A stretch of DNA of 64,000 nt from Bacteroidota bacterium (GTDB lineage Bacteria; Bacteroidota; Bacteroidia; B-17B0; Aurantibacillaceae). This document shows positions 54,569 to 59,669 of this stretch, piece by piece. The stretch is taken from NCBI GenBank assembly GCA_018267825.1, contig JAFDXR010000001.1, positions 110,286 to 174,285 of the forward strand, in the 5' to 3' direction. The notes below the pieces were generated by a model. The model saw only the letters and a program-made list of their open reading frames with translations, had not been told where the DNA came from and made no database searches. The first letter of the stretch is position 1; every line of letters starts with the position of its first letter. A program made the position numbers and the translations under genes.

Positions 54569-55567
54569 TTACAAGTTACCCATTTTTACAACAAGATCGA
54601 CCAGGCGGTTGCTATAGCCATATTCATTGTCGTACCAGCCAATAACCTTAACGAGGTTACCAACCACACTGGTAAATTCAGCATCAAATAAGACAGAGTG
54701 CGGATTACCAACCACATCCACCGATACGATCGGGTCTTCGGTGTATTCCATAATTCCTTTCAGATCCGTTTCCGCTGCTTTTTTAAATGCGGCATTGATT
54801 TCTTCCACACCGGGGTAATTGGTCAATACACAGGTAATGTCGGTCAGTGAGCCATCGGGCACAGGTACGCGCATGCCACATCCTCCAATTTTATCACCAA
54901 GGTCCGGGAATATTTTTCCGAGTGCTTTGGCTGCTCCGGTGCTGGTTGGAATAATGCTTACTGCAGCTGCACGCGCACGGCGTAAATCGCGGTGTGGCGC
55001 ATCGTGCAGGCGCTGATCGCCGGTATAGGAGTGTACGGTTGTTACGTAAGCTTCTTCGATACCCCATTGCTGTAATACTTTAAGCATAGGTGCCGAACAA
55101 TTGGTTGTACACGATGCATTTGAAATAATGGTATCTTCTTTTTTCAGGATATGATCATTCACGCCAAGAACAATGGTTTTGATATCATCATCTTTCGCAG
55201 GTGCCGATAAAATAATTTTCTTAGCTCCTGCGTCCAGGTGCTTCTGTGCGGATGCTTTATCGAGGAACAAGCCTGTTGATTCAAGCACGATGTCGATACC
55301 AAGTTCCTTCCATGGCAGTTGAGCCGGATCTTTGGAGCCGAAAATCCTGATTTTTTTTCCATTCACAATCAGATGCTGGTCGTCATGAGAGATTTCAGCC
55401 TTAAGCTGACGGTGCACCGAATCGTATTTTAATAAATGGGCTAATGTTTTTGCATCTGTAATATCATTGATAGCGACAATGTCGATATGGGGATTGAGGT
55501 AAGCATTGCGAAAGAAAACGCGGCCTATCCTGCCGAAGCCATTGATGGCAATTTTAATTTGGTTCAT
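54569..55567 (-). CDS. gapA: glyceraldehyde-3-phosphate dehydrogenase, type I
   Basis: Glycolytic NAD-dependent enzyme. The 332 aa protein has the Rossmann start IKIAINGFGRIGRVFFRNA, Asp35 in INDITD consistent with NAD preference, and catalytic Cys153 in SNASCTTNC. HTVHSYTGDQR-like VTTVHSYTGDQRLHD and WYDNEYGYSNRLVDL are further hallmarks. Its start overlaps the WG-repeat gene's 3' end by 14 nt. Confidence 0.96.
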   Translation of the reverse strand: MNQIKIAINGFGRIGRVFFRNAYLNPHIDIVAINDITDAKTLAHLLKYDSVHRQLKAEISHDDQHLIVNGKKIRIFGSKDPAQLPWKELGIDIVLESTGLFLDKASAQKHLDAGAKKIILSAPAKDDDIKTIVLGVNDHILKKEDTIISNASCTTNCSAPMLKVLQQWGIEEAYVTTVHSYTGDQRLHDAPHRDLRRARAAAVSIIPTSTGAAKALGKIFPDLGDKIGGCGMRVPVPDGSLTDITCVLTNYPGVEEINAAFKKAAETDLKGIMEYTEDPIVSVDVVGNPHSVLFDAEFTSVVGNLVKVIGWYDNEYGYSNRLVDLVVKMGNL

Positions 55568-56525
55568 AGTATAAAGTTACGAGATTTTTAAAATATTGTT
55601 CTTTATCAACTTTCGTTTTTTTAAATGTTAACATATCCAGTATATACCAGTCTTCATCCTGGATCACAAGCGCCTTCTGATGTTTCAGGTAGTAAAACCC
55701 ATGTCCGGTGATTGTTTTCAATCGCTTGCCATCATAATCCTCGAAGCTGTAAAACTCTTCCGGTTCATACTCCTTGAGCACTACACGGGTTCTGGTGGCG
55801 TACTCTATATGACGCTTATTTGTGTAGAGTAATTTTCCGTGCAGTTCAAAAATATCATCGTTCAGATTGCCGGAAGATGCCGAACTGCAGCAATATACCG
55901 TGCTGTCTTCCGGGTTTATTTTTATACTTCTGTAACGGCAGCTGGCAATAACATGACCCGTACTGTCTATCAACCCACGGATGCGTAGTGGCTGTCCGTT
56001 TTTTTCAGAATAAGTCTCTGTGATGTAAAAATGACGGAGTGTCGATTCATAAATATTATCAAAGCCTTTCGACAGCTGTTTCCCCTGCCGCGATATCAGG
56101 TAAATCTTATGGTTGAACAGGATCTTAAATACAGGGGCGTGTTCCAGGTAATTGTCTGCAAGTTCCTCCTGGTTCTTAAAGGTATAAACCGTATCAGGGA
56201 AGTCCTCAGGAAGAATGCCGATTTTACGATTCTGCACATTGATAAAATAAAAATCATAATCTGCCTGCTCTTCACCGGTTAGCGGGTTCACCACGGTATT
56301 AAATGCATTTTTGGAGGCAACAAGACAAACACGGTTTGCCGCATCGAAGCCCATAACAGAATCGTATTGCGCCGGAATAACAATGCCTGACTGATTTTTG
56401 AAGCCCCATTTGGTTCCTTCTTTAAACGCCGAAAGTGATTGTGAAAATACGGGGCATGCACATATCCAAAGTATTATGAAACAATATATACGCACTATGT
56501 AAATGTAAACATTTTTCAATTGCAT
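55554..56525 (-). CDS. secreted WG-repeat-like protein, unknown
   Basis: 323 aa with signal peptide ending PVFSQS. The segment KEGTKWGFKNQSGIVIPAQYDSVMGF is a clear WG (KWGFKN) repeat. Later repeats are degenerate (YLISRQGKQLSKGFDNIYES, RGLIDSTGHVIASCRYRSI). Probably a beta-strand repeat protein in the periplasm or outer membrane. No enzymatic motif. Overlaps gapA. Confidence 0.72.
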   Translation of the reverse strand: MQLKNVYIYIVRIYCFIILWICACPVFSQSLSAFKEGTKWGFKNQSGIVIPAQYDSVMGFDAANRVCLVASKNAFNTVVNPLTGEEQADYDFYFINVQNRKIGILPEDFPDTVYTFKNQEELADNYLEHAPVFKILFNHKIYLISRQGKQLSKGFDNIYESTLRHFYITETYSEKNGQPLRIRGLIDSTGHVIASCRYRSIKINPEDSTVYCCSSASSGNLNDDIFELHGKLLYTNKRHIEYATRTRVVLKEYEPEEFYSFEDYDGKRLKTITGHGFYYLKHQKALVIQDEDWYILDMLTFKKTKVDKEQYFKNLVTLYYEPN

Positions 56526-56954: not shown

Positions 56955-58898
56955 TCAGTTGGTATAGGGCCGCGCCTGTTTTATGATAAACACGTGTTTC
57001 TTTTCAGGCGTTTCAATCATCTTAAATTCTACATCCATCCCGAAATTCTTGTAATCGGTTTTGGGCCAGGCATGGTATAAACCGTAGAAATAGCGTTTCA
57101 CATTTTCGAGTTGTAAAGTGAGTTGATACAGTTCCTCTTTACTCAACAGGGAACCTCCGGGGCTCAGGCTCGAATAGCTGATCCAGTCGGCTGAACGCGG
57201 CTCGTTATAAAAATCGGAACCCGAATTCATGTAGGAAATAACCTGCTCCGAAATAACATTTTCATCGGGAGAAACCACTTCGGCCTCCCCTTTCTGCATA
57301 TTAATCACAAACCCGACTTCGTAGTTCCTGTAAAGATTTTTAGTAATCGCCACACCGTTCACCAACTCATGGTCATAGGCTCCATGCACCAGTACAGCCA
57401 TCAATACTCTGGAGTGGTCCATACCAAAATAATCGCGCTCCTTATAAGCTCGTGTATTCCATAAACTGGCCCACACTTTTTTAATCGCTTTTTCAATGCT
57501 TTTGGCTGTATCACCCACACGCCCCGAAACGGAGGTATACAGTCCTGCCCCATTAAACTGCTCGCCATCCTCGCAGTTAGACGACGACCGGAACCTGACC
57601 TTGGTATGCCCGAACCGTGCCAGGCACATGGCGTTTACCTGCCGCAAAAGTTCTGTATCTATGGGGCTCCGGGTTATCATCTTCCGGATCGCTTTGAGTT
57701 GTATATCCAGGATACTGTCGTTAGGATTTGTTTTACGACTCAAGACAATACCTTGTATCATGGTATCAATGCCGTATTTTCTGAGATGCGCTGCATAATA
57801 ATGAAACGGAATTCCAAATGCATCGGGAGGTGTTTTCAGTTTCCCGGTCTTACGTTCCAGTCGCTTCAGTTCAGCCAGATTACAGGTTTTAACACCGTAT
57901 GCTGATTTGTTTTTCAGCTCCAGTGTTTTCAGATCCGCTAACAGACTAACAGCCGTATCATAAGGCAATTCTGTTTTTACAGTTGTGGTATTGCCTGCCG
58001 GTTGAACCTGTGCAGCGGGCTTTATGGCAATCGTATTTTCTCCAACGGATAATTCAACCGCCCGGCCTTTCCATACCCGCAGCGAATCATTGGTATAGCA
58101 GCCTTTTTTAAAGGCACATGGTGTTTTGCGGTTGGCCGTGAGCAGGCAGATATGGCTTAGGGGCGTTTGGAACCGATCGGTAATGATGCCTCTGCATACC
58201 GGAATCTGGTTCGAATTTCCCCGGATCACGAGTATATTGCGACTGTAATCAACAGAAGCCCTGATGGAGTCTGCATCCACAAATCTCAGAATACCCGTAA
58301 CCTTCCCCTTGAAAACAGGCTGATAGCTTTGCTTCTGAAACAGATCATCGCCGGTAATGACATCATGCTTTGCGGCGAGTTCCTTTTTCCTGCGCAGTAA
58401 TGTTGTTGTGTTCAGCAGTATTTTGAATTTGTTGCCCAGGAAAAAAGTCTGCGAGACTTTGGCAACCAGCTTATCAATCATTTCATCGCTGATATCGTCG
58501 GGTGGCGCAAATTGCAGGAAATAATTTTTCGTATCGGTATTGTAATTAAATGTAGCCAGAATATATTTTCTGCCCGGATCACGGCCATAGTTCAGTTTAT
58601 TGAAAATATCGAGTTCATCTTCGTCAAACAATACACTGGTTACAAAAGAATAATGCCAGGTGTATTTCCGCGATTCAATATAGTAGATCTTATCGGTCCG
58701 GAGTTCATATATTACTTTTATACATTCAATGCCATTATAGTTGTTCGACAAGGGCTTTCCTTTCATACGGTCAAAATCAGCCCGGTTGCTGATCGTATTC
58801 AGATAATCAGGAACTCTCGACTGAGCCTGGTTTTGACAGGGATATAAAAGGCCTGCCAGCAAAACCAGGAGGCTGAATATGCAGTGAGTACGCTTCAA
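56955..58898 (-). CDS. secreted dikinase-like protein: phosphohistidine motif then PPDK-type ATP-grasp
   Basis: 647 aa from TTG at 58898, with a signal peptide ending QNQAQ. Residues about 240-262 (TDRFQTPLSHICLLTANRKT) resemble the phosphohistidine motif of dikinases, with His249. Residues about 330-645 form a PPDK/PEP-synthase-type ATP-grasp: YGVKTCNLAEL, VRFRSSSNCEDGEQFNGAGLY, WASLWNTRAYKERDYFGM, and the terminal VFIIKQARP. The order His-then-ATP-grasp matches glucan water dikinase, not PEP synthase. A periplasmic location is odd for an ATP user. Activity is unproven. Confidence 0.8.
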   Translation of the reverse strand: MKRTHCIFSLLVLLAGLLYPCQNQAQSRVPDYLNTISNRADFDRMKGKPLSNNYNGIECIKVIYELRTDKIYYIESRKYTWHYSFVTSVLFDEDELDIFNKLNYGRDPGRKYILATFNYNTDTKNYFLQFAPPDDISDEMIDKLVAKVSQTFFLGNKFKILLNTTTLLRRKKELAAKHDVITGDDLFQKQSYQPVFKGKVTGILRFVDADSIRASVDYSRNILVIRGNSNQIPVCRGIITDRFQTPLSHICLLTANRKTPCAFKKGCYTNDSLRVWKGRAVELSVGENTIAIKPAAQVQPAGNTTTVKTELPYDTAVSLLADLKTLELKNKSAYGVKTCNLAELKRLERKTGKLKTPPDAFGIPFHYYAAHLRKYGIDTMIQGIVLSRKTNPNDSILDIQLKAIRKMITRSPIDTELLRQVNAMCLARFGHTKVRFRSSSNCEDGEQFNGAGLYTSVSGRVGDTAKSIEKAIKKVWASLWNTRAYKERDYFGMDHSRVLMAVLVHGAYDHELVNGVAITKNLYRNYEVGFVINMQKGEAEVVSPDENVISEQVISYMNSGSDFYNEPRSADWISYSSLSPGGSLLSKEELYQLTLQLENVKRYFYGLYHAWPKTDYKNFGMDVEFKMIETPEKKHVFIIKQARPYTN

Positions 58899-58907
58899 TC
58901 GCAGGTT

Positions 58908-59669
58908 CTATTCTTTTCCGTATTTCTTCTTCATTTCCTCAATATATTTGGCGCGCTCTTCAGGGCTCATGTTCATAATTTCCTGCTGTGTTTTCATACC
59001 CTGCATCGCTCCAGGCGTTTGTACGGTTTCTGTTTTAGTATAACCGGCCGGTATGTCAAAATCTGTTTTGGCAATGGTCGCCTTTTCTATTTTCACCAGC
59101 TCCATGGTCATATCCCCTTCGCGTGGATCATTCTTGTGAATCATCTTTACCAGGAATCCTTCGCAACCGGCATCCTTGAGTGCCTGGTTACGTTTGGCTG
59201 AACCCAACCGCTTATTGCTGCTCATCGCATCGGCATATTTTGTATAGTCCGGAATATCCTTGGTATTCCACACTTCCATCGTTTCCGTGCCTTCCGTAAT
59301 CAGGGCATGGGTGCATTTATAACCGTTCACGACTTCGTCATTCAGTTTTTTAACTGTATAGGTTCTGTTATCCGTTTGTTGCTGCACTTCCTTTTTTTTC
59401 ATCTCCGAATACGATTTACTTTTTTCGTTGATCACATAAATCACATCCGGATTTTCTTTTTTCCAGATCTGTACGAGTTTCATGCCTCCATCGGGCATCT
59501 GGGCGAAAAACATATTGATTTCCGACCTGTAGCCAACATCGGTATACTTTACCAGGGAGTTTCCTTTTATACCTTTCGACGAGGTAAATTTGTATTCGAT
59601 GGTTGTACCGTTCTGGGCTGCCATGTTTAAACCCATAACACTCAGCAGGAGTAAAAGTGTTTTTTTCAT
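58908..59669 (-). CDS. DUF4412-like secreted protein
   Basis: 253 aa with signal peptide MKKTLLLLLSVMGLNMAAQ. A beta-rich first half (IEYKFTSSKGIKGNSLVKYT, VYVINEKSKSYSEM) and a helix-rich end (SPEERAKYIEEMKKKYGKE) match the DUF4412 outline as I recall it. No known function. It lies 9 nt upstream of the dikinase-like gene, so the two form an operon. Confidence 0.72.
   Translation of the reverse strand: MKKTLLLLLSVMGLNMAAQNGTTIEYKFTSSKGIKGNSLVKYTDVGYRSEINMFFAQMPDGGMKLVQIWKKENPDVIYVINEKSKSYSEMKKKEVQQQTDNRTYTVKKLNDEVVNGYKCTHALITEGTETMEVWNTKDIPDYTKYADAMSSNKRLGSAKRNQALKDAGCEGFLVKMIHKNDPREGDMTMELVKIEKATIAKTDFDIPAGYTKTETVQTPGAMQGMKTQQEIMNMSPEERAKYIEEMKKKYGKE

Follow-up and report, generated by a model that had tools for sequence, protein, structure and literature searches.

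Enzymes that relay a phosphoryl group from ATP through a phospho-histidine are known from the cytoplasm and from plastids. PEP synthase and PPDK run in the order ATP-grasp, His, PEP-binding, and glucan water dikinase carries its His domain before a C-terminal ATP-grasp. Outside the cytoplasm ATP is thought to be scarce. Rifampin phosphotransferase (RPH) is not known to carry an export signal. The domains of RPH follow the order ATP-grasp, rifampin-binding, His; its His domain travels between two distant sites, and its Lys22 is essential (PMC4844700). CotH, a polyphosphate polymerase and DUF4956 together form a described accessory set of Pel clusters in Gram-positive bacteria (PMC7112168).

Here we describe an exported dikinase-like protein encoded in a 64,000-nucleotide stretch of a Bacteroidota genome (the window). 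It belongs to a family that shares with RPH the ATP-grasp fold, a predicted swivelling His domain and the conserved ATP-grasp residues, but which has the reverse domain order, no rifampin-binding domain and an export signal. The PF01326 domain and its catalytic residues are likewise common to the family and to PEP synthase and PPDK, whereas the PEP/pyruvate barrel is missing, the order is again reversed and the proteins are exported. As in the glucan and phosphoglucan water dikinases, the His precedes a C-terminal ATP-grasp, and three relatives give sub-threshold matches to GWD1_pHisD; however, the exported proteins are much smaller and bacterial, with no recognised starch-binding domain. A further comparison is with the CotH kinases that occur with VTC and DUF4956. 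These are also exported and keep similar genomic company, to the point that the dikinase-like gene takes the CotH position of an operon in one locus (L129, compared with L127), yet CotH has a protein-kinase-like fold (PMC7821199) as opposed to the ATP-grasp and phospho-His seen here.

The gene and its export signal

The gene occupies positions 56955..58898 of the window on the reverse strand and encodes 647 residues from a TTG start, an assignment based on the ORF, Pfam and the structural model. A stop codon lies in frame just 5' of the TTG. In the Pfam scan, PF01326 (PPDK_N) matched residues 334-646 (E=1.1e-18, 68.1 bits against a cut-off of 27); apart from this domain the protein had no Pfam match above cut-off, and CotH kinase (PF08757) gave none. 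In NCBIfam the protein matched PEP synthase, PigC/RedH and rifampin phosphotransferase, in each case over the ATP-grasp part only and with a score far short of the cut-off (RIF_Ptrans_rph, for instance, reached 37.8 bits against a cut-off of 999). Among them PEP synthase outscored PigC/RedH, and the PEP synthase and PPDK equivalog cut-offs were missed by a wide margin. When the window's own genome (G000, rated 100% complete) was searched with PF01326, this gene was the sole match, and the search turned up no canonical PEP synthase or PPDK.

Residues 1-25 (58824..58898, reverse strand; MKRTHCIFSLLVLLAGLLYPCQNQA, followed by Q) constitute a signal peptide with a probable signal peptidase I site between A25 and Q26, as the Q-rule for signal peptide cleavage in Bacteroidetes would have it (PMC5837995; PMC10653852). 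We judged export across the family by sequence pattern, scoring an [AGSC]Q pair at positions 14-35 against internal control windows. The pair stood at the expected cleavage position in 68 of 85 homologues versus 11% of the control windows, and nearly all of these 85 distinct full-length proteins begin with a hydrophobic signal sequence. Of the homologues that lack the pair, most show a Cys resembling that of a lipobox or a Q preceded by some other residue, or belong to other phyla. Some family members carry CarboxypepD_reg or Lamin-tail (LTD) domains at the N-terminus, with LTD fused in L116 and L119, and type IX C-terminal sorting tails were found in L135, in the gene beside L098 and in L173. 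From these sequence features we predict that the 647-residue protein is periplasmic after Sec export and cleavage; its relatives resemble lipoproteins or cargo of type IX secretion. That the protein leaves the cytoplasm, as the initial annotation had proposed, is supported by the signal peptides or lipoboxes throughout the family.

Large family members with type IX tails, at L173:8525-12487 and L098:7938-11648, combine PPDK_N with CARDB, SprB and Por_Secre_tail.

Conservation, domain order and predicted active site

A search of 120 relatives returned seven more full-length copies at 45-60% identity, one at 32% and one partial match. Scanning genome contigs with a single sequence found nothing; scanning them with an alignment found 171 relatives, 80 of which were kept. 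The taxa represented are Bacteroidota, Fibrobacter/Chitinispirillaceae (Fibrobacterota), and Kofleriaceae and other Myxococcota. Distribution is patchy in both the phylum sample and the class sample (22 of 395 genomes in the latter at E 1e-60). Because 85 distinct homologues of about 29-60% identity show the same complete architecture, the domain arrangement is not due to chance.

Across these 85 full-length sequences from three phyla, H249, K337, R437, S438, S439 and E443 are invariant, as are D444, D622, E624, Q641 and R643, and, in the N-terminal domain, H82 and Y104. The ATP-grasp set is common to the family and to the canonical PEP synthases of other Bacteroidota; residues that mark the family are H505 (nearly invariant), N514, F625 and K626. 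Loss of His249 and the ATP-grasp residues across homologues would have counted against the initial annotation, and given their invariance no such loss is seen among the 85.

An AlphaFold2 model built from a 79-row alignment reached a pLDDT of 93.2 and a pTM of 0.90. In a fold search with this model, residues 316-647 (56958..57953, reverse strand), a PPDK-type ATP-grasp containing K337, R437, E443, D444, D622, E624, Q641 and R643, matched the ATP-grasp of rifampin phosphotransferase (5hv1; Z 24.1, rmsd 2.1 Å, 289 residues), and PEP synthase and PPDK were also matched by fold. The ATP-grasp is nearest to those of rifampin phosphotransferase and PEP synthase. By its motif, K337 would correspond to Lys22 of RPH.

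Upstream in the protein, residues 189-297 matched the His swivel domain of rifampin phosphotransferase (5fbu, residues 753-867; Z 11.3) and the N-domain of Enzyme I (Z 10.7). On the basis of the fold match and profile comparison, we assign a swivelling phospho-His domain to residues 190-300 (57999..58331, reverse strand), with His249 (codon 58152..58154, reverse strand; within QTPLSHICLLTANRKTP) as the predicted phosphorylated residue, conserved in 85 of 85 homologues. When this region was compared by profile with the His domains of PEP synthases, the match was weak and was not used as support, so the phospho-His identification draws on the fold, a cousin family and the spacing of the motif.

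Another exported family of Bacteroidota, about 975 residues long (L022:1369-4287, reverse strand; L024:58-2988, forward strand; L030), likewise starts with a signal sequence and has PPDK_N at the C-terminus; its His motif, LVSHVQLLARN, precedes the ATP-grasp here too. It aligns with the 647-residue protein by hhalign at E 2e-12 in the His region and 1e-25 in the ATP-grasp, but it is much longer, differs in its N-terminal half and has other invariant residues (for example D at 439 and S at 514).

The fold thus confirmed the order His then ATP-grasp, with no domain C-terminal of the ATP-grasp. The reading first made of this gene stands in most of its parts: the ORF with its signal peptide, His249 and a C-terminal ATP-grasp was borne out by ORF, sequence, Pfam and fold, and the glucan-dikinase-like order by the fold alignments of both domains. 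The Pfam scans recognised neither a PEP-binding barrel nor a starch-binding domain. What that account overlooked is a conserved N-terminal domain at residues 29-193 (58320..58814, reverse strand), home to the invariant H82 and Y104, which folded alone at a pLDDT of 93.6. Pfam recognised no carbohydrate-binding domain in it, and a search with the isolated domain gave no confident PDB match (best Foldseek E 0.039). A resemblance to polyphosphate kinase 1 was rejected, since its score (Z 4.6 over 97 residues, rmsd 4.2) falls in the tool's stated noise range. We regard this domain as a candidate acceptor-binding domain, for which carbohydrate is a possible ligand.

Genomic neighbourhood

In the window, the dikinase-like gene converges with a small ORF. 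On its other side a DUF4412 gene with a signal peptide (58908..59669, reverse strand) ends 9 bp before it, and co-transcription of the two is possible in this genome; DUF4412 was dismissed as a conserved partner, as it is not a neighbour in the relatives examined. The 323-residue protein encoded at 55554-56525 (reverse strand) begins with what resembles a signal sequence and matches the WG repeat at a score slightly below cut-off. None of the suggestive neighbours described below (DUF4956, VTC, His_Phos_1, LTD/CotH) is present at the window locus, and no glycan genes adjoin. The window's genome has a VTC-DUF4956 pair on another contig (G000:C6; L136:9371-10760), and neither a CotH nor a dikinase-like gene is immediately adjacent to that pair.

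Suggestive neighbours were found at a minority of loci. At L129:6453-11079, genes for VTC, DUF4956, DUF2490 and the dikinase-like protein follow one another on one strand as an apparent operon, and L127 has VTC, DUF4956, a DUF2490-like gene and then, in the place of the dikinase-like gene, a CotH-like gene assigned from its sequence. DUF4956 lies directly upstream of the dikinase-like gene in Tenacibaculum and in L073. It converges with the gene in L130 and L132-L134, four genomes that belong to a single genus, as well as in L131, a member of another family. Given that a genome has about one DUF4956 gene, adjacency in three arrangements is unlikely to be chance; by a rough estimate, with no formal test, the expected number of such cases is far under one. 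A gene for an exported histidine phosphatase (His_Phos_1) follows the dikinase-like gene by 3 bp in six Tenacibaculum loci, and one lies directly upstream of three type IX-tailed members. LTD genes flank family copies in L105, L115, L120 and L099, and Pfam-confirmed CotH-LTD genes do so in L058 and L167.

These exported His_Phos_1 genes include L173:7636-8172, L174:11747-12265, L175:7940-8491 and L053:7894-8388; the lineages are distinct, and the phosphatase gene may stand on one flank of the family copy or the other. We discounted CotH profile matches in L083, L108, L113, L130, L134, L135, L138 and the window, which are probably matches to type IX tails because the seed contained such tails. 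Genome-wide co-occurrence was set aside as well: CotH is found in 94 of 120 relatives and DUF4956 in 87 of 120, and with both so common their co-occurrence with the family is uninformative.

Alternative readings and proposed function

On balance we favour the view that the gene belongs to an undescribed exported family of the PEP synthase/PPDK/rifampin phosphotransferase superfamily and that its product is an extracytoplasmic His-relay phosphotransferase. That the gene represents a new family of periplasmic or surface phosphotransferases had been one of two suggestions in the initial annotation, and the export signals, domain order and intact catalytic residues make it the most likely reading. 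The invariance of the catalytic set speaks against the other suggestion, that a nucleotide-binding fold has been repurposed. The same evidence bears on the idea of a protein that senses or binds nucleotides but has lost phosphate transfer: export to an ATP-poor compartment and the lack of any known activity would suit such a protein, but 85 homologues, at identities as low as ~29%, show 100% conservation of His249 and of the complete ATP-grasp set, and mere binding would not demand such conservation, His249 least of all. We therefore consider a sensor improbable. To an ordinary cytoplasmic enzyme whose true start lies downstream of the signal peptide, the other finding that would have counted against the initial annotation, we attach next to no weight. 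Its one point is the TTG start codon. Against it, homologues are mostly ATG-started and have signal sequences, and type IX tails and extracellular domains occur among the relatives; moving the start to residue 45, where the next in-frame ATG stands, would drop the signal peptide and cut into the beginning of the conserved N-terminal domain.

Two other chemistries were weighed against phosphate relay to an envelope acceptor. A bacterial dikinase that acts on alpha-glucan or a surface polysaccharide and binds carbohydrate through its N-terminal domain would account for the glucan-water-dikinase order, the LSH-type His motif and the matches to GWD1_pHisD that L008 (E 0.0011), L003 and L007 give below threshold. 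It would also fit the company that CotH/polyphosphate polymerase/DUF4956 sets keep with Pel polysaccharide genes in Gram-positives (PMC7112168). Nevertheless, GWD1_pHisD (PF22973) appears in 3 of 9 close members, at best with 19.0 bits against a cut-off of 27, and in neither the window protein nor ten more distant homologues scanned; no carbohydrate-binding domain was recognised, and the window gene has no adjoining glycan genes. We find this reading unlikely, and a specific glucan link, as the comparison with glucan dikinases had implied, is not supported: the matches in relatives stay below cut-off, and the ATP-grasp of the window protein is closest to RPH and PEP synthase. Another idea in which we place little confidence is an ATP-dependent ligase whose reaction passes through a phosphorylated intermediate, comparable to PigC and RedH, pigment ligases related to PPDK. 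The superfamily does include ligases, as the NCBIfam PigC and RedH matches to the ATP-grasp region (E 3e-11 and 3e-10) indicate, but those matches span the shared ATP-grasp only, lie far below cut-offs and are bettered by PEP synthase, and no small-molecule biosynthesis genes adjoin the gene.

Returning to the His-relay phosphotransferase, the evidence of sequence and model describes a gene that is real, conserved, exported and probably active. By analogy with the movement of the RPH His domain, the ATP-grasp domain would bind ATP, the presumed donor, and the phosphoryl group would pass to His249 on the swivelling domain, which would then turn and deliver it to an acceptor. That acceptor is probably held by the N-terminal domain, in the region of K61, H82 and Y104, and may be an envelope or extracellular component. 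The protein could belong to the same pathway as the CotH kinases, the polyphosphate-type VTC/DUF4956 genes and the exported histidine phosphatase. More tentatively, the relay might phosphorylate a surface or matrix acceptor in parallel with CotH kinases or in their stead, perhaps fed with phosphate donors by the VTC/DUF4956 system and reversed by the exported histidine phosphatase; a link to exported polyphosphate is speculation.

In the open-access literature we found no description of secreted PPDK-like proteins (the type IX part searched by exact phrases), and the main text of a Tenacibaculum maritimum secretome study (PMC10288586) makes no mention of such a protein. An exported family that is conserved and keeps its predicted active site intact points to an undescribed surface phosphate-transfer chemistry in Bacteroidota and some other bacteria. 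With such a family one can test where phosphorylation outside the bacterial cytoplasm draws its energy, and it offers a way into the still puzzling gene sets of CotH, VTC and DUF4956.
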